In this document: piece after piece, positions 6,887-59,578 of the stretch
Layout of the letters: each line of letters opens with the position of its first letter
Numbering within the stretch: the stretch's first letter is position 1
NCBI RefSeq assembly: GCF_011801145.1
Contig: NZ_CP046172.1
Location: 3,162,001 to 3,226,000, forward strand
Source: Nocardia arthritidis
GTDB lineage: Bacteria > Actinomycetota > Actinomycetes > Mycobacteriales > Mycobacteriaceae
Reading direction: 5' to 3'
DNA: 64,000 bases
Translations under genes and position numbers: made by a program
The notes under the pieces: model-generated
The model's input: only the letters and a program-made list of their open reading frames with translations
What the model was told of the DNA's origin: nothing
The model's database searches: none

Positions 6887-6892
6887 GGTTTC

Positions 6893-14506: not shown

Positions 14507-14515
14507 GACGCGGCG

Positions 14516-14555
14516 GGCTCCGTCGCGACGGATCAGCCGACGTCGCGGCGGAGCC
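14516..14555. terminator. Bidirectional hairpin between convergent genes
   Basis: Arms 14516-14530 and 14541-14555 (GGCTCCGTCGCGACG / CGTCGCGGCGGAGCC) pair over 15 bp with one mismatch. The hairpin follows the cutinase-like stop and includes the last codons of the convergent DUF3145 gene. Confidence 0.7.
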
Positions 14556-15066: not shown

Positions 15067-15162
15067 CACTAACACCTCCAGCTTCGACGAGGACCGTCTT
15101 CCCCAACGACCCGTCGTACTGGCTGTGGCCCGAGTGTACTGGAGTGTCCGAAGTTACACGTG

Positions 15163-15993: not shown

Positions 15994-16036
15994 GCCGCGA
16001 GCCTACCGGCCGGAAGCCGATACCATCGGTACCACT

Positions 16037-17230: not shown

Positions 17231-17233
17231 TCG

Positions 17234-40846: not shown

Positions 40847-40857
40847 CGCGACCCATC

Positions 40858-40898
40858 GCCCCTCGTAACTCGCTGCCGCACAGCGAGTTACGAGGGGC
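40858..40898 (+). terminator. Strong terminator after the aminopeptidase gene
   Basis: Perfect 18-bp arms 40858-40875 and 40881-40898 (GCCCCTCGTAACTCGCTG and its complement) with a 5-nt loop, 11 bp past the stop codon. Confidence 0.92.
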
Positions 40899-41539
40899 AT
40901 TGCCGTCGCCGATTCGCCCGGTCTCAGGCCGTTCATCGTCGGCGGTGGCGAAAGTGGTTGGGCCGTAGCTCGTTTGGTAGTGGATGGCCGATCCGGCAAT
41001 GCTTGCCAGCCGTGGGGATGGCGGTGATCACATTTTCGCCAAATGCAAGAAGTTAGCCGGGCTGCTTACGCATGCCATGGCTGGCAACCTCCGATTGTGA
41101 ACATCGCATCAAGGTGTGGGTGTTGTCCTTGTGATCCTCGGCGAAATGTGTGCGTGTGCCTCGGGATTGAATAAATACCAACGAGTTGGTTTTTGAAAAA
41201 TTGCATATAGCCCGTGAATTCGGCATGAACTGCGGATTCTCGGCGAGGCGGCTGCGCCTGTGGAGATTGTTGATGTATCAGTAATTCGGAGATGATCGTC
41301 GCGTGTCGGCGGCAACTACGTGTTACGTTGTGTAACAAGGTGTTTCGTGGGTAGTTCGGACTTGGAATAGCCATCGGTTCGCCCTGGAACCGACCGGTCT
41401 TGCCCGGCGGGTCGGCGGATTGCGTTGCCTCCGAAGCAGGAGTACTGATGGCGTGGAGCCAAGCGGATCCGGTCGACGCTTGTGCGGCTGCACAAATCGA
41501 GAGACGCGACGGTCTCGATAGCTAGATTCTGGAGGACAT
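40899..41539. other. Long lower-GC intergenic region preceding the lipid cluster
   Basis: About 640 bp without a supported gene, with markedly lower GC between roughly 41140 and 41350. It holds the palindrome TGTTAC-N5-GTAACA at 41321-41337, a good candidate operator for a TetR- or MarR-like regulator. A GGAGG at 41531-41535 serves the first acyl carrier protein. The promoter of the twelve-gene operon must lie here. Confidence 0.6.
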
Positions 41540-41794
41540 GTGACCGCAGCTTTTGTCGTGGGGGAACGAGTAAGCGAAATGTTCCGGCGCGGGCTGCACG
41601 TCACCGAGATAGACGTCGATATCCCGTTGCTGGACTATGGACTGGACTCGGTGCGTTCGGCCGAACTGGTGATCGAGTTGGAGCGTGCGTTCGGCGTCGA
41701 GATCACCGATGCGGAGGCGGCGGAACTGTACACCGCGCGTGACGTAATCGACTGTGTGACAACGAAAATGGGACACACAGGGGTCGGTGCCTGA
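41540..41794 (+). CDS. Acyl carrier protein 1
   Basis: An 84-residue carrier protein. Ser37 in LLDYGLDSVRSAELVIELE is the 4'-phosphopantetheine site. Four-helix acyl-carrier-protein length and charge pattern. The GTG start follows GGAGG; the ATG two bases earlier is followed at once by a stop. First gene of the cluster, 3 bp before the fused reductase gene, so it is the likely acyl donor for the reductase domain. Confidence 0.9.
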   Translation: MTAAFVVGERVSEMFRRGLHVTEIDVDIPLLDYGLDSVRSAELVIELERAFGVEITDAEAAELYTARDVIDCVTTKMGHTGVGA

Positions 41795-41797
41795 GCC

Positions 41798-44700
41798 GTG
41801 TTGCCATTGAATCCCGACTCGGGCGAGCCCTCGCCCGAGTCGATGGAACGCGAGCTGTTCGACGATTTCGCCCGGCACAACCGGCCGGGGCTGGCCCGGC
41901 TGCTGCGGGCCTGCCGCCTCGACGTGGTGTACACCGGCGCGGCGGGCGACCATCTGATCCGTGCCGACGGCACCCAGGTGCTCGACCTGGTCGGCGGATT
42001 CGGCGCCGCGCTGTTCGGGCACAACCACCCCGCGCTGGTGCGTACCGCGACCGCTCAACTGAATCGCTTGGCCCCCTTCGTATCCCAGGGCAGCGTGCGC
42101 CCCGGCGCGGCCCGGTTGGCGCGCCGGTTGTCGGAGCTGGTCGGCGCGAGCACCGGGCGCGAGTACACGGTGACCTTCGGCTGCACCGGCGCGGATGCGG
42201 TGGAGGCCGCCATTCGACACGCGGCGGTCGCGCACGCCCGCGCGCTGACCGAACTGGAGAACGAGCTGCGCCGTACCCTGCGGCGGGCCCGCCGCGACGA
42301 GTCACACGACATCCGGCCCGCGGGCGATTCGCGCACGGTGGCGGGCATACTCGCCGAATCGCTGCGGACGATCGATGAAATACGCGGCCGCGGACCGGTT
42401 TTCGTTTCGCTGTCCGGTGCGTTCCATGGGAAGACCACGGGCGCCTTCGCGCTCACCGAACAGGCCGACACACCGGCCGATCTGGTGGTCCCCGGACCCG
42501 AGCGGCGACGGCTCGAGACCTGGGATCCGGACCGGGTCGTCGCCGCGTTCGACGCCGAAGCGGCTGTGGTGGAACGCATTCTGTTCGACGGTGCGGGCAG
42601 GCCGACCTGTGCCCGGATCCAGATATCGCCGATCGCGGCGATATTCGCCGAACCGATCCAGGGCGAGGGCGGCGTGCACGAGGTGCCCGCCGAAACCCTG
42701 GTGGCCCTGCGTGAATTGGCCGATCGGCGCGGCGCGGCGCTGGTGTTCGACGAGATCCAGTCCGGAATGGGCCGCACCGGAACATTTCTGGCGTCCACGC
42801 CGTCGGGGGTGCGCGCCGATTATTACCTGCTGTCGAAATCGCTCGGCGGCGGGCTGGTGAAGATCTCGGCGCTGCTGGTCGAATCCGGGCGCTCGGTGGC
42901 CGATTTCGGGCGTTACCACACCTCGACCTTCGCCGACGACGAACTGTCCAGTACGGTGGCCGATGCTGCTCTGGATATGTTGCAGGCCAACAGCATTCGC
43001 GTAACCGATGCGGGTGCGCGGCTGCGCGGCCGACTCGACGCGGTGGCGCGGCGGTGGCCGGGGGCCATCGCCGCCGTGCGCGGACGGGGGTTGCTGCAGG
43101 GCATCGAACTGCGGGAGGTGCGGCCGGATTCGGCGCTGCTGCGCGAAATCCTCGACCCGGAGATGCTCGGCTATGTGGTGGCCGGATATCTGTTGCACAC
43201 CCATCGGATCCGGATGCTGCCGACCTTGTCGGCGCCGACCACACTGCGGCTGCAACCATCGGCCTTCATCGCCGACACCGATCTGGACCGGGTCGAAGCC
43301 GCCCTCGACGACCTCGGGGCATTGCTCGACCGCGGAGACTACGCGCGGCTGCTGGCCCACGTCGCCGGCTATCCGTCCACGAATCCCACCGCACCGCAAT
43401 GGAAACCGAAGGTCCGGCAGATGCGTGAGCCCGCGCGGGACCCGAATGCGCCCACCCGTGTCGCGTTTCTGGCCAATTTGCCCGAGGCGGCGGATCTGCG
43501 CCGCATCGCCCCGGAACTGGCCGCCTGGTCCGACGGCGAGTTCGCGGCGCTGCTCGAGCGCCTGCGCGGTGTCGCCGAACCGTTCGAATTATCAAGGCGG
43601 ACAGTGACATCCCCGACCGGAGCCGAGGTCGAGATCTGCTTGATCGCCGTACCGGTCACCGCCGAGCAGATCATCGAAATCCAGCGCGGCGGGCACGGCG
43701 CCTGGCTGCGCGAGCTGGTGCTCGACGCGGTGGATCAGGCGATCGCGGCGGGCGCGACGGTGATCGGGCTCGGCGGTTACACCTCGATCGTCACCAACGC
43801 CGCCCGCGACGTTGTCGCCGACACCGTCAAGGTGACCTCCGGCAATTCGCTCACGGCCGCCTGCGCGTATGAGGTGGTGCGCGACGAACTCGCCCGGCTG
43901 GCCCCGGGACAGCGCCGCGTCGGCATACTCGGCGCGATCGGGAATATCGGCGCGGCGATGGCCGAACTCGTTGCCCCGCTTGCCGATTCGGTGACGTTGA
44001 TCGGTCGTCCCGGCTCGGCGTCGCGGTTGCGGCGGGTCGCGGCGGCACTGCCGGGGACCATCGAGATCAGCGAGGATATCGCCGCGCTGCGTGACTGCCG
44101 CGTCGTGGTGACCGCGACCAATTCCCCGGCGCCGCTGATCACCGCCGATCGGCTCGCCGCCGACCATTCGGTGCTGATCTGCGATCTCGCCGTCCCAGGT
44201 GATGTGGACCCGGCGGTGGCCGAGCGCGACAACGTCACCCTGGTTTCCGGCGGCCGGATGGCGCTGCCGCTGGGCCAGACACCTTCGTTCCCCGAGACCG
44301 GGCTGCCCGCCGGGGTGGTCTACGCGTGTATGGCCGAGACCATTCTGCTCGGCTTCGAACCGCAGACGGCCAGCCCCTCCTACGGCGGTCTTTCGGTGTC
44401 CGGCGTGCTCGCCGCGCGCGAGCTGGCAGACCGGCACGAGCTGCGCCCGGTCCGTCTCCCGAAAGGAGAACCCACCATGTCTTACGTCCCGATGTTCTTG
44501 GGAGCGGCCGATTTCGACGACAATCGCGCCGGTGGCAAAGCGGCCGCCCTGCATGCGCTGTGCGCGGCCGGATTCGACGTGCCGCCCGGCTTCGTGCTCA
44601 CCGCCGAGGTCGATCCGGCGGATATCACCGACGAGCAACTCGAACGCTGGGTGCGCGATATCGGCGGCTTCCCCGTCGCGGCCAGGTCCAGCGGTGTGCT

Positions 44701-47626
44701 GGAGGATCTCGACGACGCCAGCTTCGCGGGCCAGTACGAGTCGTATCTGAACATCCCCGACATCGCCACCCTGCGGACCCGGATCGAACAGTGCAGAGGG
44801 TCCGCGCGCAACGATCGCGTACGCGCCTACCTGTCCCGTGGCGGCTTCGCGGAAGCGAAAGCCGTTGTGGCGGTGTTGATCCAGCGCATGGTCGCGGCCG
44901 AGTACGCCGGTGTCGGATTCAGTATCGATCCGCTGACCGGTATCGAGGAGCACGCGGTGGTCGAATGCTGCCGCGGGCTCGGCGAACGACTCGTCTCCGG
45001 GCATGTCGCGCCGACCCGCTACACGCTGCGGCTGCGCGACGGCGGCGTGGTGGAGCGCGAATCCGGCGGCGAGGACGTCGAACTCGACGCCTCGGCACGC
45101 GCCGGGCTGGCGGCGCTCATGCTGGCGGTCCAGGCGCACCGGCACCGGCCACAGGACATCGAATGGGCCGTCGACGACACCGGCAAACTGTGGCTGCTGC
45201 AAGCCCGCGCGATCACCGCCATCGGCTGGCGCACCGATATCGACCAATTCTCCGACGCCGACCTGCGCGACGGCGGAATCTCCGCGCGAGTGTGCACGCC
45301 GATGATGTTCTCGTTGTACGACAACGCATTCCAGCACTCGATGCAGCGATTCTTCGAACGATTGCAGCTGATCGACTCCGGGGACGAACCGGATTGGCTC
45401 GCCATGTATTACGGGCGCGCCTACTGGAATGTGAGCGCGGTGAAGAACTGCTTTCGCCGCATTCCCGGATACGACGAACGGCATTTCGACGACGACCTCG
45501 GCGTGCTCAACGAGTACGGCCCCGCCGGGCCCGAACGCACACCGAACTCGCCGAGGACGATCGCCCGCGCGCTGCCGGTGGCACTCGCGGTGCAGCGCAG
45601 CTACCGCGACCAGCTCACCGAGGTGGACGCCTTCGCCGCGGCGTGGCCCGCGAAACACCTGGCCTGGCGCGAGCGGGTGCGCGAGCTGTCCCGCACCGAC
45701 GAGGCAAGTTTCGTCGCCGATCTGGCCGATTGCCTGCTGACCTTTCACGCGGGCACCGAACGCGCCTACTTCACCACGATCTACCACAACTCCAGCGTGC
45801 AAAGCGATTTCAAGCAGCTGCTCGACAAGATCGACGCCGCCACCGGCGGGGAAACCTCGGCCGTCACGCTGATGGGAGGTCTGGCCGAGATCAGCCATAT
45901 GAATCTGCAGCGCGGAATCGTCGAGCTCTACCGGGTGGCCGGGGAATTCGGTTTCGACGGTCGCGAATGGGATCGGGCGCTGACGGATTTCCTTGCCGCA
46001 CAGGGCTTTCACGCCGACGCCGAACTCGATCTCACCTGCCCGCGCTGGTCCGAGGCGCCCGAGCGGGTGCGCTCGATGATCGCGGCGATGCTCGAACACG
46101 GCGCGGGCCCGGCCGATCCCGATGCGACGCTGATCGATCAGCGCAAGCGTTACGAGGACGAGCTGGCGGCGGTGCGCGCCAGGGTGCGGGCCAAACCGAT
46201 GACGCGGCTGAAGTTCGCGAACGCGCTCGATCGGCAGGTGGACCGGATGCGCCGCTATCTCATCGCGCGCGAACGGATGCGGGAGTTCTCGCAGCAGTGC
46301 TACGCCATCGTGCGCGCGTATGTCGTCGAGGCCGGGATCCGGCTGGCCGCCGCGAAAGCGATCGCCAACGCCGATGACGTCTTCATGCTGTCGATACACG
46401 AACTGACCGACCTGGCGGCCGGGCGGGTCGACGCCGCCGCGCTGACACCCGAAATCAATTATCGCCGTGCGCTTTACGCCGGATACCGGGATCTCACGCC
46501 GCCACATGAACTCGGTCGCGGCGTCACCGTCGACGCGCCGCGCACCGCCGGAGCGGGTGAGCTCACCGGGCTCGGCTGTAGTCCCGGCATCGCCGAGGGC
46601 ACCGCCAGGGTGATCACCGCACTCGCCGATATCGATCAGCTGCGCACCGGCGATATCCTCGTCACCCGGTTCACCGATCCGGGCTGGACGCCGGCGCTCG
46701 GACTGGTCGATGCCGTGGTCACCGAGGTCGGCGGCATGCTGTCGCACGCCGCGGTCATCGGGCGGGAGTACGGCATCCCCGCCGTACTCAATGTCGCGGG
46801 GGCCACGGCCGCGGTGCGCTCCGGGCAGCGGATCCGGGTGGACGGCGGCACTGGGGTGGTGACCATCCTCGATACCGCCGACGGGAGCGGGCTCTTCCGG
46901 CCGGTGCCGGATCGTGTGCCCGCCGAAAGCGTCACTGCCGCAACGGATTCACCGAAACAGAAAGCGAGCAACACCGTATCCCCATCGTTGCGCCGCTCGA
47001 TGGAATCGACGCGCAAGCGCCTGATCTGCATCGCGGGCGGTGACGGCTCGGGTAAGACGACCCAGGTGGCCCGGATTGCCGCCGAATTCGAGGCGCAGGG
47101 TAAAACCGTTGCGGCGGTGACTATTTGGGATGCCTTCCTGGATCCGGCGATCTCCGCCGGATTGCCGTGGCGGAATCCGGACGAGGTATACGACTATCTG
47201 AAACTGCTCACCCCGCTGAGCCGCGCGCACTTCCTGTTCCACGCCATGCAACTGTCGTTCGATCTGGCCGCGGCCCGCGACGCGGACATCCTGCTGGCGA
47301 ATGCCTACTGGTACAAGTACTTCGCGACCGAGGTCGCGCACGGCGGCGACCCGGCCGTGCTGCGCAGGCTCGCGGCGGGCTTCCCGGAGCCCGACCGCAC
47401 CTTCTATCTCACGGTGAGTCCGCAGGATGCGCTGGGTCGCAAGCAGTTACGCAGCGACTACGAGAGCGGATACGGCGACGAGGCCGCCTTCCTGGAATTC
47501 CAGCGGCGCAGCCATCATGCGCTGGAGGAACTGGCCGATGAACTGGGCTGGGTGCGGCTGGACGGCACATCGACCCCGGCCGAACTCACCGAATCCATTG
47601 TGGGACAACTGGAGGCGGACCGGTGA
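41798..47626 (+). CDS. 1942-residue fusion: class III aminotransferase, acyl-ACP reductase, PEP-dikinase-like, P-loop kinase
   Basis: Residues 1-535: class III PLP aminotransferase (HNHPALVRTATAQLNRLAPF; AIFAEPIQGEGGVHEVP; VFDEIQSGMGRTG; PLP Lys347 in LLSKSLGGG). Residues 545-893: long-chain acyl-ACP reductase like cyanobacterial AAR (VIGLGGYTSIVT, KVTSGNSLTAACAYEV, LGAIGNIGAAMAEL, and catalytic-type Cys844 in YACMAETILLGFE). Residues 894-1735: rifampin-phosphotransferase-like dikinase with ATP-grasp domain (VAARSSGVLEDLDDASFAGQ) and swivelling His1650 (LSHAAVIGREYGIPAV), without the pyruvate-binding barrel. Residues 1735-1942: thymidylate-kinase-like P-loop (GGDGSGKTT, Lys1753). Acyl-ACP to aldehyde to amine is the likely reaction of the first half. 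A ribosome site inside the gene at 44462 suggests a second product from ATG 44477. Confidence 0.85.
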   Translation: MLPLNPDSGEPSPESMERELFDDFARHNRPGLARLLRACRLDVVYTGAAGDHLIRADGTQVLDLVGGFGAALFGHNHPALVRTATAQLNRLAPFVSQGSVRPGAARLARRLSELVGASTGREYTVTFGCTGADAVEAAIRHAAVAHARALTELENELRRTLRRARRDESHDIRPAGDSRTVAGILAESLRTIDEIRGRGPVFVSLSGAFHGKTTGAFALTEQADTPADLVVPGPERRRLETWDPDRVVAAFDAEAAVVERILFDGAGRPTCARIQISPIAAIFAEPIQGEGGVHEVPAETLVALRELADRRGAALVFDEIQSGMGRTGTFLASTPSGVRADYYLLSKSLGGGLVKISALLVESGRSVADFGRYHTSTFADDELSSTVADAALDMLQANSIRVTDAGARLRGRLDAVARRWPGAIAAVRGRGLLQGIELREVRPDSALLREILDPEMLGYVVAGYLLHTHRIRMLPTLSAPTTLRLQPSAFIADTDLDRVEAALDDLGALLDRGDYARLLAHVAGYPSTNPTAPQWKPKVRQMREPARDPNAPTRVAFLANLPEAADLRRIAPELAAWSDGEFAALLERLRGVAEPFELSRRTVTSPTGAEVEICLIAVPVTAEQIIEIQRGGHGAWLRELVLDAVDQAIAAGATVIGLGGYTSIVTNAARDVVADTVKVTSGNSLTAACAYEVVRDELARLAPGQRRVGILGAIGNIGAAMAELVAPLADSVTLIGRPGSASRLRRVAAALPGTIEISEDIAALRDCRVVVTATNSPAPLITADRLAADHSVLICDLAVPGDVDPAVAERDNVTLVSGGRMALPLGQTPSFPETGLPAGVVYACMAETILLGFEPQTASPSYGGLSVSGVLAARELADRHELRPVRLPKGEPTMSYVPMFLGAADFDDNRAGGKAAALHALCAAGFDVPPGFVLTAEVDPADITDEQLERWVRDIGGFPVAARSSGVLEDLDDASFAGQYESYLNIPDIATLRTRIEQCRGSARNDRVRAYLSRGGFAEAKAVVAVLIQRMVAAEYAGVGFSIDPLTGIEEHAVVECCRGLGERLVSGHVAPTRYTLRLRDGGVVERESGGEDVELDASARAGLAALMLAVQAHRHRPQDIEWAVDDTGKLWLLQARAITAIGWRTDIDQFSDADLRDGGISARVCTPMMFSLYDNAFQHSMQRFFERLQLIDSGDEPDWLAMYYGRAYWNVSAVKNCFRRIPGYDERHFDDDLGVLNEYGPAGPERTPNSPRTIARALPVALAVQRSYRDQLTEVDAFAAAWPAKHLAWRERVRELSRTDEASFVADLADCLLTFHAGTERAYFTTIYHNSSVQSDFKQLLDKIDAATGGETSAVTLMGGLAEISHMNLQRGIVELYRVAGEFGFDGREWDRALTDFLAAQGFHADAELDLTCPRWSEAPERVRSMIAAMLEHGAGPADPDATLIDQRKRYEDELAAVRARVRAKPMTRLKFANALDRQVDRMRRYLIARERMREFSQQCYAIVRAYVVEAGIRLAAAKAIANADDVFMLSIHELTDLAAGRVDAAALTPEINYRRALYAGYRDLTPPHELGRGVTVDAPRTAGAGELTGLGCSPGIAEGTARVITALADIDQLRTGDILVTRFTDPGWTPALGLVDAVVTEVGGMLSHAAVIGREYGIPAVLNVAGATAAVRSGQRIRVDGGTGVVTILDTADGSGLFRPVPDRVPAESVTAATDSPKQKASNTVSPSLRRSMESTRKRLICIAGGDGSGKTTQVARIAAEFEAQGKTVAAVTIWDAFLDPAISAGLPWRNPDEVYDYLKLLTPLSRAHFLFHAMQLSFDLAAARDADILLANAYWYKYFATEVAHGGDPAVLRRLAAGFPEPDRTFYLTVSPQDALGRKQLRSDYESGYGDEAAFLEFQRRSHHALEELADELGWVRLDGTSTPAELTESIVGQLEADR
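44462..44470 (+). promoter_or_regulatory. Internal Shine-Dalgarno within the fused gene
   Basis: AAAGGAGAA lies 6 nt before ATG 44477, which begins MSYVPMFLGAADFDDN, the exact N-terminus expected for a free-standing dikinase. The reading frame has no stop between the reductase and dikinase parts, so either a stop codon was lost between two former genes or both long and short products are made. Confidence 0.7.
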
Positions 47627-48468
47627 CCCGGCGCATCGCCATCGTCGGTATCGACGGCTCGGGTAAATCCTCGGTGCTGGCCCGGCTGCGTGCGCTCGCG
47701 CCCGGCGCGGCGGCGCCGACCGTCTTCGCGTCGATGACGTGTCCGGACTTCCACAACACCCGCGATGTCCCGCTCGCGGAGCTGTCCCGGCAGTTGAAGG
47801 CGTTCAGCGTCGGCTGCGACGAGGTCGGCAGCGTCGAGCTGAAGGCCATCGCGATGTATCTGCAGATGACGCTGTTCGGCCCGGTGGAACGCCACTTCGT
47901 CACCACCTTCGAACCGGATGTGCTTGTGTTCGAACGTCATCCGTTGATCGAGCTGCTGGTGTACGGCCCGCTCTACACCGCGCTCGCCCGCCCCGGCTGG
48001 CAGGAGCGGACCCGGCTCGACGAGATCGCCGAGGTGCTCGAGCGATACGCCCCGGGCACCTTCGACGACATTCTGGCCTGGCATCGGGCCGAGGCCGTTC
48101 GGCTCGGCGCGGCCCCGGATATCCGGTCGGTGCTCGGTGAGATCGCCGATCTGGTCGATCGCCCCGTGCCCGAGAGCATCGCGGGTTTCGCCGATCGGTT
48201 CCGCACCACGCTGCCGGACGCGGTGTTGTGGCTGGACACCCCGCCGGAGCAGGCGGCGGCGCGCTGTGCCGCACGGTCGGCCGACGGGCCGGTGGAGGCG
48301 CACGAGACGGCGGAACGGCTCGGCGCGTTGCGCGAAGGCTATGTGCGCGTGCGGCATACGCTCGCCCGCGCCTTTCCCGAGGTCGGTTTCCACCGCATCG
48401 ACACCGGCGACGGCGTCGAGCTGGCGGAATCGGTGCTCGCCTGTGTTACGGAAGGAAAGTTGTTGTGA
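47623..48468 (+). CDS. P-loop (thymidylate-kinase-like) kinase
   Basis: A 281-residue protein with Walker A motif IVGIDGSGKSSVLARL, a DVLVFERHPLIELLVYG segment resembling the DR/Y motif of dTMP kinases, and a LID-like Arg-rich part (AARCAARSADG). Substrate-binding residues for dTMP are not conserved, so another phosphoryl acceptor is likely. It is a second copy of the domain that ends the preceding protein. GTG 47623 overlaps the previous stop by 4 bp, and its own stop overlaps the next gene. Confidence 0.8.
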   Translation: MTRRIAIVGIDGSGKSSVLARLRALAPGAAAPTVFASMTCPDFHNTRDVPLAELSRQLKAFSVGCDEVGSVELKAIAMYLQMTLFGPVERHFVTTFEPDVLVFERHPLIELLVYGPLYTALARPGWQERTRLDEIAEVLERYAPGTFDDILAWHRAEAVRLGAAPDIRSVLGEIADLVDRPVPESIAGFADRFRTTLPDAVLWLDTPPEQAAARCAARSADGPVEAHETAERLGALREGYVRVRHTLARAFPEVGFHRIDTGDGVELAESVLACVTEGKLL

Positions 48469-48695
48469 CGGAAATCGAGCGCCGGGTGCGCTCCGTCGTC
48501 GCCGACGTGTTGTGGGTGGCGGCAGGGGATTTCGATCCGGACGGATCGCTCACCGATTACGGCCTTGATTCGCCCACCTCGATCGAGCTGACGATTCAGC
48601 TGGAACGGACCTTCGGCATCAGCATCCCCGAGGATGTCGCGGCCCGGCTGACCACCGTCGGCGCGATCGTGCGGTACGTGGAGGCGGCGGCATGA
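48465..48695 (+). CDS. Acyl carrier protein 2
   Basis: A 76-residue carrier protein. Ser36 in LTDYGLDSPTSIELTIQLE is the phosphopantetheine site. It lies between a kinase and the fatty acyl-AMP ligase, with GTGA and ATGA overlaps on both sides, and is the natural acceptor of the acyl-adenylate made by that ligase. Confidence 0.92.
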   Translation: MTEIERRVRSVVADVLWVAAGDFDPDGSLTDYGLDSPTSIELTIQLERTFGISIPEDVAARLTTVGAIVRYVEAAA

Positions 48696-51801: not shown

Positions 51802-51808
51802 ATGTGCC

Positions 51809-54508
51809 GTGACCGATATCAAGACGACCCAGGTCGTTTCGGCGGAAGCCGTTGCGGGGCTGGAGATCGCAGAGGTGGGCGCGAAGGCGGCCGCGCTCGG
51901 CAGGCTGGTGGCCGCGGGCTATCGGGTACCGCCGTTCGTGGTGCTCACCACGGGTGCGTGCGCCCGCATCCTGGCGCCGGCGGCGGATGCCATCGCGCGG
52001 GCGATAGCCGACCTGGACCACACCGACCCGCTGTCCCTGCGATCGGTGGCGAACAGCATCCGCGAATTGATCGCCGGACTCGCCCTGCCCGATGACATCG
52101 CCGACGAAATACATACCGCTGTAGGAACATTCGGTGCAGACGCGCGTTTGGCGGTGCGATCCTCGGTCAGCGGCGAGGATTCGGCCGCCGACTCCTTCGC
52201 GGGCCAACTCGACACCATGCTGAACGTCGCCGCCGACGCGGTGGCGCCCGCGGTGCTGGCGGTGCTCGCCTCCGCCTACTCGGAACGCTCCCTCTTCTAT
52301 CGAGCCCACCGCGGGCTGGACAACGCGCGCATCGACTGCGCCGTCGTACTCCAGGCGCTGATCGAATCCAGCGTCTCCGGCGTGGTTTTCAGCTGCAACC
52401 CGCAGACCGGCGACCCGGCCGAGGCGGTGGTTTCGGCCGGTCTCGGGCTGGGCGAGGGGATTGTGTCGGGCCTCGTCGAGTGCGATACCTACTTCGTCGA
52501 CATGCGTTCCCGGACCGTCGTTTCCCGCGTGATCGCCGAGAAGCGGAGCCGGATCGTCGCATCGGCCGCGGGCACCGCGCTCGAGCGGATCGACCCGGTC
52601 ACCGAGGCGGCGTTGACCGACGCGCAGGTCGCCGAATTGGCCGTCACCGCCACCGCGCTCGCCGAATCCGCGGGCGCACCACAGGATGTCGAGTGGGCCT
52701 ACGACGGCGCGGGCACGCTGTATCTGTTGCAGTCCCGTCCGGTGACCGCGACCGGCCAGCGCGAAACGATCTTCGACAACGTCAATGTCGCGGAGTCCTA
52801 TCCCGGCCTGTCCAGCCCGCTCACCTTCTCCGTGCTGCGGCGGGCCTATGAACAGGTGTTCCGGGTCTCGCACCGTGATTTCGGCGCGACCGGCTCGATC
52901 GTCGACCGCAATGCCGCGGCGCTGTATCCGTACCTCGTCGGCACCGCGCACGGTCGCATCTACTACAACATCAGCAACTGGTATCGGCTGTTCCTGCAAA
53001 TCCCGGGAATGGAATTCGCCATCGAGGGCTGGGAGGCCGCGCTCAATATCGAGAACCGATACCGGCGTCCGGCCGCCCCGGCACGCGGCATCGCGCGCAT
53101 CCGCACGTATCTGCTGCGCGCGCGGGTGATCGCGGTCGTCGGGGCCGGGTGGCTGCGCCTGCCGCGCAGATTGCGTTTCTTCGCCGCCGAGCTCGCGCGG
53201 TTCACCGCCGACCTCGAGCGCCGCCTCGCGCCGGAAACCCCGGACCGCGAACGGGATCCGCACGCCCTGCTGGATTGGCTGGAGCGCTGCTTCGCCGAAC
53301 TGGTGCCCGCGTACTCGGTGCAGATCTTCAACGACTTCCTCGCACAGCAGCTCTTCCACCTCGTCGGCATTCTGCTGGAGCGTGCGGGCATCCCGGGAGC
53401 CGACACCCTGCGCAACGAATTGTTCTGCGGGGAGGAGGGTGTCGAGAGCGTCGACCCGGTCCGCTCGGCGCTCGCGCTGTCCGCGACCATCCGAGCCGAC
53501 CGCGGGCTGCGCGAACTGTTCGAGAGCCCGGCCGATACCGATCAGGTGTGGAAGACGCTGGCGCAGCCGGAATTCGGCGGCTTCCGCCTGGCCTGCCTGC
53601 GGCATATCGCGCTGTTCGGCGATCGCACGGTCGATGAGCTGAAACTCGAGACCGATCCGCTCGGCGAACATCCCGAGCGACTGGTTCCGATGCTGCGCAA
53701 CTACCTTCGCGGCGGGCAGAACATCGAGGAAATGCAGGCGCGCGAGCGGCGGATCCGGCGCAGTGCGGAAAAGACCGTGGCCCAAGCCTTTCGCGGCAAG
53801 CGGCTGGAACGACTCGTATTCCGTTTCGTGTTGGGCCGCGCACGGGAACACGTCAAACAGCGTGAGAACATGCGGTTGGGCCGCAGCCGCTCCTTCGGCC
53901 TGATGAAACGGGTGTTCCGGGAATACGGGCGGCAGTTGCACCGGGCCGGTGTGCTCGACGATCCGCGCGATGTCTTCTGGCTCACCTATGAGGAGATCGC
54001 CGGGCTCACCCGCGGTGCCGCCGTCGACACCGACGCCGCGCGCACGGTCGCCACCCGTAAGCGCGACCACGAACGCTGGCGCGCGGTGGCGCCGCCGTCG
54101 CGCATCGTCACCTCCGGCATCGCCGCAGCCACCCTCGCCGATCCCGTACCGCAATTTTCCGAGGCCGACGCGTCGGGCACGGTGCTCGTGGGCGTCGGCT
54201 GCGCGCCCGGCCGGGTGGAGGCGCCCGCCCTGTCCATCGCGACACCGGATCCGGATATCGAGATAGCGGGCCAGATCCTGGTCGCCGCGACAACGGATCC
54301 GGGCTGGGTGTTCCTGATGGTGGCCGCGGGCGGTCTGGTCAGCGAGAAGGGCAGCATTCTCTCGCACACCGCGATCATCGGCCGGGAGCTCGGCATTCCC
54401 ACCGTGGTCGGCGTCAAGGACGCCACCCGTCTGATATCCACCGGCGACGTGCTGGCCCTGGACGGCAAGGCCGGGACAGTCACCCGCATAGCCCGGGAGG
54501 GCGAATGA
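51809..54508 (+). CDS. PEP-synthase / rifampin-phosphotransferase-like dikinase
   Basis: An 899-residue enzyme. The ATP-grasp domain (AEVGAKAAALGRLVAAGYRV; LAVRSSVSGEDSAADSFAGQ; VVFSCNPQTGDPAEAVVSAG) is followed by a long helical middle domain and a C-terminal swivelling His domain (KGSILSHTAIIGRELGIPTV, His853). The pyruvate-binding barrel of true PEP synthase is missing, as in rifampin phosphotransferase, so ATP would be split to AMP and phosphate while the other phosphate goes to an organic hydroxyl. It resembles residues 894-1735 of the fused protein. GTG 51809 follows GAGGTGA. Confidence 0.85.
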   Translation: MTDIKTTQVVSAEAVAGLEIAEVGAKAAALGRLVAAGYRVPPFVVLTTGACARILAPAADAIARAIADLDHTDPLSLRSVANSIRELIAGLALPDDIADEIHTAVGTFGADARLAVRSSVSGEDSAADSFAGQLDTMLNVAADAVAPAVLAVLASAYSERSLFYRAHRGLDNARIDCAVVLQALIESSVSGVVFSCNPQTGDPAEAVVSAGLGLGEGIVSGLVECDTYFVDMRSRTVVSRVIAEKRSRIVASAAGTALERIDPVTEAALTDAQVAELAVTATALAESAGAPQDVEWAYDGAGTLYLLQSRPVTATGQRETIFDNVNVAESYPGLSSPLTFSVLRRAYEQVFRVSHRDFGATGSIVDRNAAALYPYLVGTAHGRIYYNISNWYRLFLQIPGMEFAIEGWEAALNIENRYRRPAAPARGIARIRTYLLRARVIAVVGAGWLRLPRRLRFFAAELARFTADLERRLAPETPDRERDPHALLDWLERCFAELVPAYSVQIFNDFLAQQLFHLVGILLERAGIPGADTLRNELFCGEEGVESVDPVRSALALSATIRADRGLRELFESPADTDQVWKTLAQPEFGGFRLACLRHIALFGDRTVDELKLETDPLGEHPERLVPMLRNYLRGGQNIEEMQARERRIRRSAEKTVAQAFRGKRLERLVFRFVLGRAREHVKQRENMRLGRSRSFGLMKRVFREYGRQLHRAGVLDDPRDVFWLTYEEIAGLTRGAAVDTDAARTVATRKRDHERWRAVAPPSRIVTSGIAAATLADPVPQFSEADASGTVLVGVGCAPGRVEAPALSIATPDPDIEIAGQILVAATTDPGWVFLMVAAGGLVSEKGSILSHTAIIGRELGIPTVVGVKDATRLISTGDVLALDGKAGTVTRIAREGE

Positions 54509-55776
54509 GCGAAAACTTCAGCCTGGAGCACTATCTGGACGCCGCCGCGCCCACCTTCGAGCGGCGTTTCGACGAGTTCCGGCCCTATGTGACCAACGCC
54601 CGGGAAACCGGTTTCGTACTGCGCGAGATCGCCGGACCCGCCGGACCCGTTGTGCGGGTGCGTGATCCGAGCGGTGGCGGGGTCCGCGACCTGATCATGC
54701 TCGGCTCCAACAACTATCTGGGACTCGCCAGCGAACCCGAGATCGTCGCGGCGGCCATCGAGGCCACCCGCGAATACGGAATCGGTTGCGGCGGACCACC
54801 GCTGCTGAACGGCACCACCTCACTGCACCGCCGTCTGGAGGAACGGCTGGCCGAGACGAAGGGCTGCGAAAGCGCGCTCGTCTTCTCCTCGGGCTACGCC
54901 GCGAATATCGGTTGGGTGACCGGTCTGCTCCGGAAAGGCGATGTGCTGATCTACGACGAGCAGAGCCACGCCAGCCTCTACGACGGCATCCAGTTGGGCC
55001 GGGTGCGCTCGATGGCGTTCGGCCACAGCGATATCGACCAGCTGCGGCACCGGCTCCGGCAGGTGCGCTGGCGCAACCCGGGTGCGAATATCGTCGTCGC
55101 GGTCGAGGGCGTGTACTCGATGGACGGCGATATCGCGCCGCTGCCGGAGATCCGGGCGCTGTGCGATTCGTTCGGGGCCTGGCTGGCCATCGACGACGCG
55201 CACGGCACCGGTGTGCTCGGTGCGAAAGGCCATGGCACCGCCGAACATTTCGGCATGGACCCGGGCGCGGTGGACCTGTCCATGGGCACCTTCTCGAAGG
55301 TGTTCGCCACCACCGGCGGATTCGTCGCGGGTTCCCGGGATCTCATCGACACCCTGCGATTCTTCGCACGCTCCTATATGTTCTCGGCCGCGCTGTCGCC
55401 CGCGGTGGTGGCGTCGGTGCTCGCGTCGATCGATTTCATCGATGCCCACCCGGAACGCGTCGCCCAATTGCACGACAATTGCGCCTATTTCGTTCATGGA
55501 CTGCGTGATATGGGGTTCAGCGTCGATCCGCAGACCGCGATCATCCCGCTGCTGGTGCCCCGGCGGCTGGCGGTGGCCGAGGTGGTTTCGGCCATGCACG
55601 AGGCGGGCGTATTCGTCAACGGCGTCGAATTCCCCGCCGTCCCACGCGAACTCCAGCGGTTGCGGATCTCGATGATGGCCACGCTCACCCTCGCCCAGCT
55701 GGATTTCGCGCTGGAGCAGATCTCGATCGTGGCTCGCCGCTTCGGATTTCACCCTGAGCAGGAAGGTGCCGCCTGA
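54505..55776 (+). CDS. Alpha-oxoamine synthase resembling serine palmitoyltransferase
   Basis: A 423-residue PLP enzyme that condenses an acyl thioester with an amino acid, losing CO2. The PLP Lys265 lies in MGTFSKVFATTGGFVAG; the TFSK form is typical of serine palmitoyltransferases, where AONS and KBL have other residues. Other motifs: MLGSNNYLGLAS, DEQSHASLYDGI (His155), AIDDAHGTGVLG (Asp230, His233) and FARSYMFSAALSPAVVAS, again close to bacterial SPT. The length matches soluble SPTs (about 400-420). Serine with acyl-ACP would give a 3-ketosphinganine-like product. ATGA overlap with the dikinase. The amino acid used cannot be proved from sequence. Confidence 0.85.
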   Translation: MSENFSLEHYLDAAAPTFERRFDEFRPYVTNARETGFVLREIAGPAGPVVRVRDPSGGGVRDLIMLGSNNYLGLASEPEIVAAAIEATREYGIGCGGPPLLNGTTSLHRRLEERLAETKGCESALVFSSGYAANIGWVTGLLRKGDVLIYDEQSHASLYDGIQLGRVRSMAFGHSDIDQLRHRLRQVRWRNPGANIVVAVEGVYSMDGDIAPLPEIRALCDSFGAWLAIDDAHGTGVLGAKGHGTAEHFGMDPGAVDLSMGTFSKVFATTGGFVAGSRDLIDTLRFFARSYMFSAALSPAVVASVLASIDFIDAHPERVAQLHDNCAYFVHGLRDMGFSVDPQTAIIPLLVPRRLAVAEVVSAMHEAGVFVNGVEFPAVPRELQRLRISMMATLTLAQLDFALEQISIVARRFGFHPEQEGAA

Positions 55777-55777
55777 T

Positions 55778-57160
55778 ATGACCGATACGAATATCGCGGT
55801 GGGCGGCACCCCCGAGGAACGCGCGCTGGTGCACGCCGCCCTGGCTCGACCCAGCGAGCTGGAACGAATGCGGTTGCGCGAGTTGGTCGACGACATCGCG
55901 GACTGGCCGGAATTCCTCGCCCTGGCGAAGGTGAACGCCACGGTGCCGCTGGTGCGGCGGCGGCTGGAGCGCGAGAATCGTCTCGACCTCCTACCGCCAC
56001 CGGTCGCGGCCGAATTCGCGGCGATCACCGACCACATCGCCGAGGTCAACGACCGGCGACTGCACGCGGCCATCGAACTATTGGCGCGCTGCCACGAACG
56101 CGGCATCCGCTGTGTGGTGCTCAAGGGCATGCTGTTCGCCACGGAGATCTATCGCGATCCGCGCTACAAGCGGATGAACGATCTGGACATCCTCGTCGAA
56201 CTGGATCAGGTCGACGCCCTCATCGGCGTCTACCGGGAGCTCGGCCTGTTCGCCACCACCGAACTGCTCGGGAAGGCGCCGAAGATTCGCGCCGAGCGCT
56301 CACATCACCTCCCTTCGTTCGTTTCCCGTGACGGCGCGCTCGTCGTCGGCACGCACTGGGGTCTGATCACCCCGCTCGCGCCGTACACCGTTGACTACCG
56401 CGCTATCTGGAATCGGGTGCGCCGCATCGACTTCCACGGTGTTCCCGCATGGGCGATGGCGCACGAGGACAACCTGCACCACCTCGGCATCCACCTGCCC
56501 TACTACAAGACCGGTGTTCGTGAACTCGGCGATATCTGGAATCTGGCCCGCGGCGCCGAACTGGACTACGGCCTGTTGCGGTCCGAGATCGCCGCGGCGG
56601 GCACCGAACGGCTGATGTATCACGCGCTGTCGCTGGCGCACCGGCTCGTCCCCATACCCGAATTCGCCGAGCTGATCGCCTGGCTCGAACCGGACGTCGA
56701 CCGGTTCACCCGCTACGACACTGCCCGCAAGACGGCCGATATCCATACCCTGCTGCGCAGCCGGTCCACCCACACCTCGCGAATCGAGAAGGCGTACACC
56801 GAGTTCAATATGACCGCGGTGGCGAGCGAGAAGCTCGCGTGCTTCGGCAGGCTGTGGTCGAATCTGCTGCTGGTACCCGGCGACGAGGCCGCGAAGATGA
56901 GCTCGCTGCGCGCACCGAGCGGGCTGCCCGCGCTGGGCGCGCGAATCGCCGCCCCCTACCGGCTGACTCGCGTCTTCCAGCGCGATCTCGGCCGATGGCT
57001 GTTCCCGGCGGCCCTGGCCAAAACCGTCTTCGACCTCGCGGCCAGTTACGGCGGCGAGCTGCGGGGCGGTGCCGAGAAGGCAAAGGGCATAGCCGAATTC
57101 GCCGCGGAACTCGGTCTCGATCGCGCCGAACTGCAAGCGGTGCTGGACAGTCAGGAATGA
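55778..57160 (+). CDS. Nucleotidyltransferase-family protein (NTP_transf_5 type)
   Basis: A 460-residue protein. The nucleotidyltransferase core is in CVVLKGMLFATEIYRDPRYK then RMNDLDILVELDQVDAL, with the paired Asp of a polymerase-beta-type metal site (DLDILV). A helical C-terminal half of unknown role follows. Related proteins occur in lasso-peptide and exopolysaccharide clusters, where they are linked to phosphoryl or nucleotidyl transfer. Here it sits between the alpha-oxoamine synthase and a HAD phosphatase. ATG 55778 lies 1 bp after the synthase stop. Confidence 0.75.
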   Translation: MTDTNIAVGGTPEERALVHAALARPSELERMRLRELVDDIADWPEFLALAKVNATVPLVRRRLERENRLDLLPPPVAAEFAAITDHIAEVNDRRLHAAIELLARCHERGIRCVVLKGMLFATEIYRDPRYKRMNDLDILVELDQVDALIGVYRELGLFATTELLGKAPKIRAERSHHLPSFVSRDGALVVGTHWGLITPLAPYTVDYRAIWNRVRRIDFHGVPAWAMAHEDNLHHLGIHLPYYKTGVRELGDIWNLARGAELDYGLLRSEIAAAGTERLMYHALSLAHRLVPIPEFAELIAWLEPDVDRFTRYDTARKTADIHTLLRSRSTHTSRIEKAYTEFNMTAVASEKLACFGRLWSNLLLVPGDEAAKMSSLRAPSGLPALGARIAAPYRLTRVFQRDLGRWLFPAALAKTVFDLAASYGGELRGGAEKAKGIAEFAAELGLDRAELQAVLDSQE

Positions 57161-57897
57161 ACGGCCCGAATTTCCGGACGGTGCTGTGGGATCTGGACGG
57201 CACGCTGATCGGATTGCGGCGGCGGACCTTCCGGATGTTGATGCCCGCGGTGGCCGCGTGGTGGTTCCGTGATCTCGTCGCGCCGCACCGATTCCTGCTG
57301 GCCTTCGGCGGTGCCCTGAAACCGGTGCGCGCCAACGACTCCACCGAGTCGAACACCGATCTGATGGTGCGGTTGCTCGCCGAACGTCTGCGGATCGACC
57401 GCGCCGTGGCCGGTATGCGATTCCACGACTTGGCGGTGCACGGATTCTCGCTGCTGCGGTGGTGTTTTCCACCGGTGCCCGCGGCGGTGCACACCGTCGG
57501 ACTGCTGCGCGCGGCGCGCATCGGGCAGGTGATCGCTACCAACCCGCTGTGGCCGCGAGAGACGGTCGAAACCCGATTGCGCTGGGGCGGTTACGATCCG
57601 GCTGCTTTCGAGCTCATCACCAGCGGGGACACCATGCGCCGGTCCAAGCCCAGCATCGAGTTCTATCGCGAACTGCTCGACCGGCTCGGCGCGCGGCCGC
57701 GGGACTGCGTGATGATCGGCAACGACGCCGCCAACGATGCGCCCGCGGCCGAGCTCGGCATTCCGGTCTTTCTGGTCAATGTGCCAGAAAGTGATGTGCC
57801 ACAACAGTATTCATCGACAGGTTTGGTCACCACGGGGGATTGGTCCCGGCTGCACGGGTGGCTGGGTATCGAGGAGAAGTCATGCTCGTCGTCCTGA
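57157..57897 (+). CDS. HAD-superfamily hydrolase
   Basis: A 246-residue phosphatase-like protein. Motif I is VLWDLDGTLIGL with the nucleophile Asp, motif II lies in QVIATNPLWP, and the Lys and acidic motifs are RRSKPSIEFYREL and CVMIGNDAANDAPAA. Overlaps: ATGA with the nucleotidyltransferase and 16 bp with the lipid kinase. Likely removes a phosphate from a pathway intermediate. Confidence 0.87.
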   Translation: MNGPNFRTVLWDLDGTLIGLRRRTFRMLMPAVAAWWFRDLVAPHRFLLAFGGALKPVRANDSTESNTDLMVRLLAERLRIDRAVAGMRFHDLAVHGFSLLRWCFPPVPAAVHTVGLLRAARIGQVIATNPLWPRETVETRLRWGGYDPAAFELITSGDTMRRSKPSIEFYRELLDRLGARPRDCVMIGNDAANDAPAAELGIPVFLVNVPESDVPQQYSSTGLVTTGDWSRLHGWLGIEEKSCSSS

Positions 57898-58805
57898 ATC
57901 CGCGGTCCAACGCGGGTACGGCACTGGCCAAATGGCAACCGGTGGAGCGGGAACTGCGCCTGCGCCACCCCGGCCTCGTCGTCGAAACGCCAACGGACCC
58001 ACAGGCCGCCGTCGAACTGGTGCGCGGCGGGCTCGCCACCGGAACGATCGTGGCCGCGGGGGGCGACGGGATGGTGAATCTGGTGCTGAACGCGATCATG
58101 GATCCCGAAACCGATCGGCCGCGTTCGGAGCGCATCGTGCTCGGCGGTATCGGATTGGGCAGTTCCAACGACTTTCACAAACCGATGAGCACCAACGTCG
58201 GCGGCGTGCCCGTGCGCATCGATGCCGAACGCGCCGCACCGATCGACGTCGGCAAGGCCACCATGCTGCTGCCCGACGGCACCCGCACGGTGCGCTATTT
58301 CCTGCTCAATGCCAGCATGGGACTCGTTGCGGCGGGCAATCATTCGTTCAATCAGGCCAGGGGCGCGATCGGCTGGCTCAAATCGCGCAACGTCTCGGTG
58401 GCGATCGCCGCCACCGCGCTGTGGAATATCGCGACGCACAGCCCGCTGACGCTGCGACTGCACGGCACCGACTGGACGCATACCGCGCCCGTCACGAATG
58501 TGGGTGTGCTCAAGAGCGTGCACTTCGCCGGTGGCATGCGCTACGACACCCCCGTGACCAAGGCCGACGGCATGTTCGACGTGAATATCTGGGCGGCCGC
58601 CCCCCGGCTGCGGATCCTCGGCCTCATCGCAGGCCTCTACCGGGGCAGGTTCACCGGATCTCCGCTCGCCACCTGCCTTCGGGACACCGCCGTGGAACTG
58701 CGTCCGGCGAACCCGGCGCCGCTGGAACTCGACGGGGAGATCACCATCGTGGAATCGGCTCGCCTGCAAGTACTTCCGCGTGCGCTGCGGGTGTGCGCGG
58801 CATGA
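57882..58805 (+). CDS. Diacylglycerol / sphingosine kinase-family lipid kinase
   Basis: A 307-residue protein of the YegS/DgkB/LCB5 fold. It starts with LVVLNPRSNAGTAL, then the nucleotide-binding VAAGGDGMVNLVLNAIM (the usual GGDGT is GGDGM here) and GIGLGSSNDFHKPM, which matches the GTGNDFAR region. A C-terminal beta-sandwich part ends with LELDGEITIVESARL. It phosphorylates a lipid hydroxyl: in this context a sphingoid-like amino alcohol, a diacylglycerol or a related long-chain alcohol. ATG 57882 follows GAGGAG, and its stop overlaps the reductase start. Confidence 0.87.
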   Translation: MLVVLNPRSNAGTALAKWQPVERELRLRHPGLVVETPTDPQAAVELVRGGLATGTIVAAGGDGMVNLVLNAIMDPETDRPRSERIVLGGIGLGSSNDFHKPMSTNVGGVPVRIDAERAAPIDVGKATMLLPDGTRTVRYFLLNASMGLVAAGNHSFNQARGAIGWLKSRNVSVAIAATALWNIATHSPLTLRLHGTDWTHTAPVTNVGVLKSVHFAGGMRYDTPVTKADGMFDVNIWAAAPRLRILGLIAGLYRGRFTGSPLATCLRDTAVELRPANPAPLELDGEITIVESARLQVLPRALRVCAA

Positions 58806-59578
58806 CGGTCGTGCTGATCACCGGTGCCGCCAACGGTATGGGAGCGGCGACCGCACGGCATCTTTCGGGGCTCGGATACACCGTCGTCGGCAGCGATATC
58901 GTCGAGCGACCGGGCCTGGACCCGGTCGATGTCAGGGATGACGCGGCCGTGCGTGCGTGGGTGCGATCGGCGCACGACGCCTTCGGCCGCATCGACGCGG
59001 TGGTCACCTTCGCCGTCTCCGCCATCGTCGGTGCGGTCGAGGAGACCGAACCGGACGAGGCCGCAACGATTTTCGACATCAATGTGCTCGGCGCCCACCG
59101 GGTGCTGCGCGCGGTACTGCCGATCATGCGCGCACAGGGCAGCGGCCGGATCGTCCTCGTCAGCTCCGGCGCGGGCGCCATCGCCGAACCCTTCGGCGGG
59201 TGGTACTCGGCCACCAAGGCCGCCATCGAACGCCTCGGCGAGGCGGTGCGCATGGAGACGGCGCCCTTCGGCATCCATACCTCGGTGCTCGCCCCGGGCT
59301 GGACCGTCACCCCGATCATCGATTCGGCCGTGCGGGTATCCGAACCGATCGATGCGTACACCCCGGCCCGCACCGCCGTCGTCGAACGCGTCACCGGATA
59401 TCTGGAGGCGGGCCAAACCGCCGAAGCGGTGGCCCGCACCGTCCAGCGCATCCTGGCGGCTACCACTCCGGAGCAGCTCTACCTGTGCGGATCCGATGTG
59501 CGCTCCTCGTTCTGGAGCCGCAGGCTGCTGCCCGCGCGCCTGTACCACCGCCTCGTCCGCCGCTACTACGGAGTCTGA
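58802..59578 (+). CDS. Short-chain dehydrogenase/reductase
   Basis: A 258-residue SDR. NAD(P) motif LITGAANGMGAATARHLSG, catalytic YSATK in GGWYSATKAAIERL, and the Ser in VLVSSGAGAIAEPF. A C-terminal basic segment (FWSRRLLPARLYHRLVRRYY) could contact membrane. As last gene of the cluster it is the best candidate to reduce the ketone made by the alpha-oxoamine synthase, as 3-ketosphinganine reductase does. It ends 5 bp from a convergent SDR gene. Confidence 0.88.
   Translation: MTVVLITGAANGMGAATARHLSGLGYTVVGSDIVERPGLDPVDVRDDAAVRAWVRSAHDAFGRIDAVVTFAVSAIVGAVEETEPDEAATIFDINVLGAHRVLRAVLPIMRAQGSGRIVLVSSGAGAIAEPFGGWYSATKAAIERLGEAVRMETAPFGIHTSVLAPGWTVTPIIDSAVRVSEPIDAYTPARTAVVERVTGYLEAGQTAEAVARTVQRILAATTPEQLYLCGSDVRSSFWSRRLLPARLYHRLVRRYYGV

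Follow-up and report, generated by a model that had tools for sequence, protein, structure and literature searches.

What does the twelve-gene operon at positions 41540 to 59578 of this stretch of Nocardia arthritidis DNA make? The stretch, called the window here, is 64 kb of contig NZ_CP046172.1 (forward-strand positions 3,162,001 to 3,226,000), and a first-pass annotation made from its letters had proposed that the operon builds a phosphorylated amino-lipid. We find that the operon is a real, conserved unit of lipid type. A phosphorylated amino-lipid is likely its general theme, and we favor, with moderate confidence, the fuller reading that it encodes the biosynthesis of a long-chain amino-lipid that is phosphorylated and probably exported.

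Conservation and organization of the operon

Conservation argues that the operon is not a chance assembly. Of 150 genomes of the same genus, 28 (the window's own included) have its gene for a serine palmitoyltransferase (SPT)-like alpha-oxoamine synthase at no less than 76% identity, the next matches reaching at most 43%. Twenty-five orthologous loci of Nocardia and mycobacteria were located in GTDB contigs through the stand-alone RPH-like dikinase of the operon (dikinase 2); the gene for acyl carrier protein 1 (ACP1) lies outside those stretches, and the 11 other genes were searched. Scattering of the genes, which the first-pass annotation had named as telling against its proposal, is not seen in these relatives: in 23 of the 25 loci the 11 genes keep a single order and share a strand, and the remaining two are contig ends of 5.2 and 10.5 kb. 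Among 20 further regions, which probably overlap with the 25 loci in strains, all twelve genes were matched in 18, one region being cut before the final short-chain dehydrogenase (SDR) gene and one being a short contig; 19 of the regions have ACP1. Compared with M. chelonae, ACP1 is 36% identical and the other parts 52 to 74%. A plasmid search gave no match. The genes are as follows.

41540 to 41794, plus strand: ACP1 (PF00550, 1.6e-12; DSV site)
41798 to 47626, plus strand: four-part protein of 1942 amino acids (Pfam matches and motifs)
47623 to 48468, plus strand: thymidylate kinase (TMPK)-like P-loop kinase, kinase 2 (Walker A motif; PF02223, 23.7 bits, cutoff 27)
48465 to 48695, plus strand: acyl carrier protein 2, ACP2 (PF00550, 7e-16; GTG start at 48465)
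48692 to 50437, plus strand: fatty acyl-AMP ligase, FAAL (PF00501, 1.2e-58)
50434 to 51801, plus strand: cytochrome P450 (PF00067, 3.7e-69; heme Cys motif FGWGAHLC)
51809 to 54508 (upstream start at 51773 possible), plus strand: RPH-like dikinase 2 (PPDK_N, 2.5e-73; PEP-utilizers, 2.1e-22)
54505 to 55776, plus strand: SPT-like alpha-oxoamine synthase (PF00155, 1.4e-52; pyridoxal phosphate Lys; DDAHGTG)
55766 to 57160 (start at 55778 possible), plus strand: NTP_transf_5 nucleotidyltransferase-like protein, NTP5 (PF14907, 8.7e-39)
57157 to 57897, plus strand: HAD-family phosphatase (PF00702, 1.9e-13; DLDGT)
57882 to 58805, plus strand: diacylglycerol kinase (DAGK)/YegS-type lipid kinase (PF00781 and PF19279; GGDG)
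58802 to 59578, plus strand: SDR (PF00106, 1.6e-33)

These twelve open reading frames (ORFs) form the unbroken plus-strand run that the first-pass annotation had described, and its remark that most junctions are 4-bp overlaps holds for 7 of 11 when the likeliest start codons are used, the rest running from about -16 to +7 bp. Its gene list had to be corrected in that the transaminase, acyl-ACP reductase, dikinase 1, and kinase 1 are a single 1942-amino-acid ORF. Pfam backs the families it had named, with the exception of kinase 2, whose PF02223 score falls under the cutoff. Catalytic motifs are present in the transaminase, the reductase, both dikinases, both P-loop kinases, both ACPs, the P450, the FAAL, the SPT-like enzyme, the HAD phosphatase, the DAGK, and the SDR; the first motif pattern for NTP5 and extra ones for SPT and DAGK found no match.

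Several relatives depart from this layout. Where the window has one big protein, M. chelonae (L030) and Mycobacterium sp. D16R12 (L033) have three separate genes; the sequences of Nocardia puris (L064 and L112) show two overlapping ORFs in its place, either a real split or a sequence error. The SDR ORF is long in L030, L031, L033, L034, and L038, and Pfam finds a methyltransferase domain fused to the SDR ortholog in both of those tested (L030 and L031). The same five loci have an ABC ATPase downstream, with an FtsX/MacB-type permease as well in L030, L031, L033, and L034, L038 being cut by a contig end. Weak ABC matches of 48 to 59 bits lie about 1 to 2.7 kb downstream in L015, L017, L019, and L036. 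A variant in genome G068 (L095/L142) encodes the four-part protein, FAAL, an ACP, kinase 2, an MMPL transporter, and a type-2 dikinase of another branch; SPT, P450, NTP5, HAD, DAGK, and SDR had no match above 25 to 30 bits in 33 kb. The fatty-amine core and the sphingoid arm therefore look separable. This locus (G068 C100:4001-37000) also encodes a metallo-beta-lactamase-fold protein, and an ORF overlapping its MMPL gene has a 56-bit UbiA-like match that lacks Pfam support.

Three features mark the boundaries of the operon.

40858 to 40898, plus strand: hairpin with a perfect 18-bp stem and a 5-nt loop, between an M28 peptidase gene and the operon
40899 to 41539, plus strand: leader, 641 bp between the hairpin end and the first ORF
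59584 to 60387, minus strand: convergent SDR gene abutting the downstream end of the operon

The first-pass annotation had seen a strong terminator and a 640-bp promoter region upstream and a convergent gene downstream. The convergent gene is there. The stretch from 40850 to 40915, containing the hairpin, folds at -41.3 kcal/mol (z = -8.55; equaled by 0 of 200 shuffles), but the hairpin has no T-run and is absent from the list of a consensus terminator scan, which leaves it a possible terminator. The leader is lower in G+C (0.564, against 0.68 for the operon) and has no sigma-70 consensus match; we presume that it is the promoter region. The M28 gene was found in 0 of the 20 further regions, for which about 0.8 to 1.5 kb of upstream DNA was available (the short contig had none); the insertion sites may therefore differ.

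The four-part protein and two dikinase families

The four-part protein consists of a class-III transaminase (residues about 1 to 520), an acyl-ACP reductase (about 540 to 890), an RPH-like dikinase (dikinase 1, about 894 to 1700), and a TMPK-like kinase (kinase 1, 1735 to 1942). It has the Lys in LLSKS, GxxGxxG, the Cys in YACMAE, the swivel His in MLSHAA, and a Walker A motif. Dikinase 2 likewise has the swivel His, and no Pfam family other than PPDK_N and PEP-utilizers matched it at E ≤ 0.001. By Pfam, both dikinases have the architecture of RPH-type enzymes, an ATP-grasp domain with a swivel His domain and no phosphoenolpyruvate (PEP)/pyruvate barrel. PEP synthase was rejected as a name for them because Pfam gives only PPDK_N and PEP-utilizers, as in RPH. 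The rifamycin phosphotransferase model gave 326.4 and 292.6 bits for the dikinases and its cutoff of 999 was missed; their architecture makes them RPH-type, but by this cutoff they are not Rph. RPH-type enzymes carry phosphate from ATP through a swiveling His to a small molecule (PMC4844700, PMC12167813), and RPH is said to be in a large unexplored dikinase group (PMC4844700).

A tree of 88 dikinases separates dikinase 1 and dikinase 2 into two clades, with a copy from the window in each. Both clades span Planctomycetota, Myxococcota, Thermodesulfobacteriota, Bacteroidota, Spirochaetota, and Pseudomonadota, and several sub-groupings are shared. The tree was made by a quick method with SH-aLRT support only, from stretches longer than 650 amino acids and above 100 bits that included 5 of the 25 Nocardia and mycobacterial loci; it has 26 open forks, some long branches, and an uneven amino-acid make-up.

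We then examined 54 distant loci of 3.8 to 22.8 kb, drawn from 79 kept among the best 80 of 108 relatives and selected for their resemblance to dikinase 2. The thresholds were set for this analysis, and the neighbor counts are lower bounds; some antisense ORFs that arose from a greedy ORF choice (clusters c13 and c24) were set aside. Dikinase 1 is present in at least 19 of the 54 and the transaminase-reductase in at least 12. What is new here is that the dikinase 1 and dikinase 2 clades each span several phyla and that at least 11 of 54 distant loci pair both dikinases with the transaminase-reductase.

The other neighbors in these loci are UbiA-like proteins (at least 40), cluster c3 (at least 30), phosphatidylserine (PS) decarboxylase (at least 19), CarS-like proteins (at least 17), DUF3419 and PEMT-like proteins (at least 11 each), CDP-alcohol transferase (at least 10), and ABC ATPase (at least 7). 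FAAL (at 100 bits or more) is present in at least 2 of the 54 and SPT in at least 1. The UbiA-like proteins have a common DELKDxExD motif; the UbiA Pfam cutoff was passed by the L065 protein tested and just missed by the L042 protein. Two c3 proteins tested had no Pfam match, and the AlphaFold2 (AF2) model of one c3 protein (pLDDT 89.5) resembles tandem GNAT folds. YghO of E. coli BL21, which we take to belong to the bCerS family, matches 29 c3 proteins at E ≤ 1e-4, the best at 193.5 bits. It has been listed as an N-acyltransferase required for dihydroceramide (PMC9386255).

Tentatively, the transaminase-reductase and dikinases 1 and 2 might form an ancient, undescribed core for membrane or surface lipids built on SPT-independent long-chain amines. 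YghO/bCerS-type N-acylation would then yield ceramide-like amides in several Gram-negative phyla, the head group would come from the UbiA-like, CarS-like, CDP-alcohol transferase, and PS decarboxylase genes, and in the Nocardia/mycobacterial branch the core would be combined with a P450 and a unit derived from SPT.

Some individual loci and lists deserve mention. In L073, from a Gemmatimonadetes metagenome-assembled genome, positions 5030 to 14456 encode an SPT-like protein, a YghO-like N-acyltransferase, a UbiA-like protein, a type-2 dikinase, and an ABC ATPase; this locus may link ceramide clusters with dikinase clusters. L074 (Candidatus Endobugula sertula) has the dikinase pair with transaminase-reductase, YghO-like, CarS-like, and CDP-alcohol transferase genes and also encodes a 953-amino-acid AMP-ligase/carrier protein. 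Most of the listed dikinase-1 relatives (P0121 to P0240) carry PF27448, and some are fused to a thymidylate kinase domain, like the window's. The presence of the same operon in Streptomyces found no backing among the best 120 of 624 dikinase-1 relatives (down to 38% identity): none has a Streptomyces-type name, a weak negative since most are nameless. The transaminase-reductase relatives at about 51 to 58% identity, among the 120 of 912 listed (P0005 to P0080), include Streptomyces, Micromonospora, Saccharopolyspora, and Segniliparus (those of Streptomyces, Micromonospora, and others at about 57%), and of these genera Segniliparus is also named among the listed relatives of dikinase 1 and kinase 2. 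TamH homologs have been noted in Streptomyces (PMC9594044). In a class-wide sample of 394 genomes, the transaminase-reductase was matched in a single genome, the window's own, at E ≤ 1e-150 with 2 candidates scored per genome, a count that says little.

Within the genus, many genomes have full-length dikinase matches at 35 to 40% identity. The window's own genome (L094, G000 C1:2661000-2680900) encodes another type-2 dikinase, 37% identical, at 8975 to 11845 of that locus, followed by a 1140-amino-acid protein with an AMP-ligase domain (11826 to 15248) and a UbiA-like ORF (18203 to 19901; 69 bits, by phmmer only); L097 groups with this copy. These families are combined in yet another way in L098 (G079 C1:5812001-5832000), where a 1166-amino-acid dikinase-like protein is encoded next to ketosynthase and SPT-like genes.

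A candidate pathway and competing explanations

Family membership of the enzymes suggests a route of six steps. First, FAAL would activate a fatty acid and load it onto ACP1 or ACP2. Second, the acyl-ACP reductase domain would free a fatty aldehyde that the fused transaminase would convert to a long-chain primary amine, a step suggested by the TamA/TamH precedent together with the intact catalytic residues: PtTamA and PtTamH turn a fatty acid into an amine via acyl-ACP and aldehyde, PtTamH refusing acyl-CoA (PMC9594044), and PigE combines a reductase with a transaminase (PMC8341465). Third, the SPT-like synthase would condense an amino acid and an acyl thioester; reduction of the ketone by the SDR would yield a sphingoid-type unit, which may be hydroxylated by the P450. 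Fourth, the dikinases would move ATP phosphate through the swiveling His onto a lipid hydroxyl or carbonyl, either as phosphorylation or as activation for joining the amine, kinase and ligase not being told apart. Fifth, the TMPK-like kinases, the DAGK-like kinase, NTP5, and the HAD phosphatase would build or trim a phosphate head group. Sixth, to judge from neighboring genes, a methyltransferase and an FtsX/MacB exporter would complete and export the product in some relatives. Because PtTamH, the counterpart of the transaminase-reductase, yields a fatty amine and an SPT arm stands beside it, the pathway may make two amine units.

Two of the head-group candidates can be characterized further. 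The family of kinase 2 is narrow: of 2375 candidates, 65 reach E ≤ 1e-10, and among the matches listed those with organism names are from Nocardia, Mycobacterium, Mycobacteroides, or Segniliparus. The AF2 model of NTP5 (mean pLDDT 82.7) gave weak Foldseek matches to MenT1, ANT(2'')-Ia, and FKRP, none at E ≤ 0.001. PsmN, presumably a member of PF14907, offers a precedent that makes phosphate tailoring by NTP5 possible. A knockout ties PsmN, annotated as a nucleotidyltransferase, to a hexose on a phosphorylated peptide (PMC9266682).

The pathway in the first-pass annotation fared well in part. FAAL/ACP loading, the SPT-like synthase with the SDR, and several phosphate-handling enzymes keep their place on family evidence, but the PtTamH-like amine route, a possible PigC-type ligase role, and the occurrence of the core without an SPT arm had been overlooked. 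It had also known of no described cluster of this make-up, and searches of an open-access collection with few subscription papers yielded no description of the operon or of the cross-phylum core.

Several observations weigh against the amino-lipid reading. The best solved relatives of the FAAL are FAALs, but its top NCBIfam model bears a CoA ligase name (PRK07768, 420 bits, cutoff 572; the FAAL model PRK09192 gave 397, cutoff 600). The top PDB match of the SPT-like protein is a serine palmitoyltransferase (3.6e-84), but BioF (363 bits, cutoff 426) is slightly ahead of SPT (358, cutoff 640) among the NCBIfam models, all below cutoff; other SPT models gave 328 (cutoff 500) and 264 (cutoff 670). 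The protein lacks the PPATP loop, which we take to be an SPT-type motif, and a 15-row tree with long branches did not settle its specificity. For the operon SDR, a generic oxidoreductase model (182.3 bits, cutoff 310) is ahead of KdsR (138.5, cutoff 400), and the best NCBIfam model of dikinase 2 is named PEP synthase (645 bits, cutoff 883). The substrates of kinases 1 and 2 could be nucleotides or sugars. Amide formation is unexplained because the operon has no YghO relative, and there is no exporter or methyltransferase among the window's three annotated neighbor genes. The neighbor counts of the distant loci are raw and lack a chance control. Finally, dikinase 2 fits the Rph, RedH, and PigC models nearly equally well (292 to 326 bits).

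This last point leaves a ligase role open, and by model scores the dikinases could be kinases or PigC-type ligases. PigC-type members of the RPH family form bonds instead of phosphorylating. If the RPH-like proteins here are PigC/RedH/TamQ-type ligases, they would phosphorylate a carbonyl and join the fatty amine to it, and the operon would be a prodiginine/tambjamine-like cluster for an enamine or pyrrole alkaloid. The PigE NCBIfam model does match the transaminase-reductase (315.6 bits), the domain order is as in TamH, the RedH and PigC matches span almost all of dikinase 2 (307.2 and 292 bits) and score lower on dikinase 1 (261 and 259), and alpha-oxoamine synthases also work in prodiginine pathways. 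However, these scores are far under the cutoffs of 850 (PigE), 1350 (RedH), and 1300 (PigC) and about level with Rph, and nothing in the whole genome exceeds the PigE or RedH cutoff. As to bipyrrole (MBC) genes, Pfam shows no ketosynthase and a single adenylating enzyme in the operon, whose 12 genes were the part of the genome searched for them; the distant core keeps company with phospholipid-type genes, and kinases 1 and 2, DAGK, NTP5, and HAD would be left unexplained. We consider an alkaloid product unlikely.

Somewhat less probable still is a plain sphingolipid operon, in which SPT, ACP, FAAL, a KdsR-like reductase, and a ceramide/sphingosine kinase would make a phosphosphingolipid and the rest would be decoration. 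The known set in Rhodobacteria combines SPT with a dedicated ACP and an acyl-ACP synthetase (PMC9386255), sphingolipid potential has been credited to some Actinobacteria (PMC12134224), and the operon SDR has a match, below cutoff, to the KdsR model. The E. coli BL21 locus (L141) has yghO, FAAL, epimerase, ACP, and spt genes, with three dTMP-kinase-like genes (yghR, yghS, and yghT) about 5 to 8 kb on; in this stretch (4283 to 17258), LptG/LptF-annotated genes also lie near the sphingolipid genes. Against this, the operon has no match to E. coli YghO (2.9 bits at best), there is no clear CerR relative (the E. coli epimerase scores 7.1 bits against the operon SDR), and the core also occurs without SPT. 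Alignments of kinase 2 with YghR/S/T cover 27 Walker A columns only; kinship of the TMPK-like kinases with these proteins was rejected on the same hhalign result. The four-part protein and the dikinases have no role in the known ceramide pathways as excerpted. The Caulobacter CPG pathway was rejected as a template, nothing specific in common having been found in the sources as excerpted.

Drug tolerance or detoxification, with the RPH-like proteins phosphorylating rifamycin-type or aromatic compounds, is very improbable: the architecture and the rifamycin phosphotransferase scores (326 and 293 bits) fit, but the cutoff of 999 is missed, the gene context is one of fatty-acid activation and amine formation, and the cross-phylum neighbors are lipid-type.

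If the amino-lipid reading is correct, Nocardia and some mycobacteria, opportunistic pathogens among them, produce phosphorylated amino-lipids of a class so far not sought. Two multi-phylum families usually named "PEP synthase" would gain a testable role in lipid biosynthesis, the four-part protein would provide a natural means of converting acyl-ACP to amines, and the operon would be a case of an SPT-like enzyme at work in actinobacteria.

Comparison with known systems

The tambjamine YP1 pathway of Pseudoalteromonas tunicata includes a PigC-type ligase. Its tail pathway (PtTamA and PtTamH) resembles the operon in using an adenylating enzyme with an ACP, and PtTamH is a transaminase-thioester reductase fusion with the same order and types of domain and the same types of catalytic residue as the four-part protein. 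Unlike PtTamH, the fusion of the operon runs on into a dikinase and a kinase, and unlike the tambjamine pathway, the operon has no bipyrrole-type genes and adds an SPT-like enzyme, a P450, a lipid kinase, and NTP5. By the features tested (RedH, PigC, and PigE cutoffs missed; no ketosynthase in the 12 genes), it is not a prodiginine/tambjamine cluster.

With the ceramide operons of Caulobacter crescentus and E. coli BL21 (yghO-spt), the operon shares an SPT-like synthase, an ACP, a FAAL, and a dehydrogenase, as well as a lipid kinase in Caulobacter and nearby dTMP-kinase-like genes in BL21. The set of SPT-like synthase with catalytic Lys, ACP, and FAAL is present, and E. coli B proteins score 212.7 (SPT), 272.8 (FAAL), and 16.4 and 10.0 bits (ACP, against ACP2 and ACP1) in the window. 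Unlike ceramide operons, it has no N-acyltransferase, has the transaminase-reductase and two RPH-like dikinases, and is actinobacterial. By the features tested (no YghO; SPT cutoffs missed), it does not appear to be a standard ceramide operon.

The RPH small-molecule dikinases (Rph and HpeHI, and PigC and RedH by model) have an ATP-grasp domain, a unique central part, and a C-terminal swivel His, as here; unlike them, the operon has two co-located copies in separate clades, and the Rph, RedH, and PigC cutoffs are missed. PfSgaAB of Pseudomonas fluorescens MYb115 likewise joins an alpha-oxoamine synthase with a KdsR-type reductase and makes polyketide sphingolipids as secondary metabolites, but its chain comes from an iterative polyketide synthase, and the source as excerpted mentions no transaminase-reductase or dikinase. 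The operon looks as though it works like parts of the prodiginine/tambjamine and ceramide systems.

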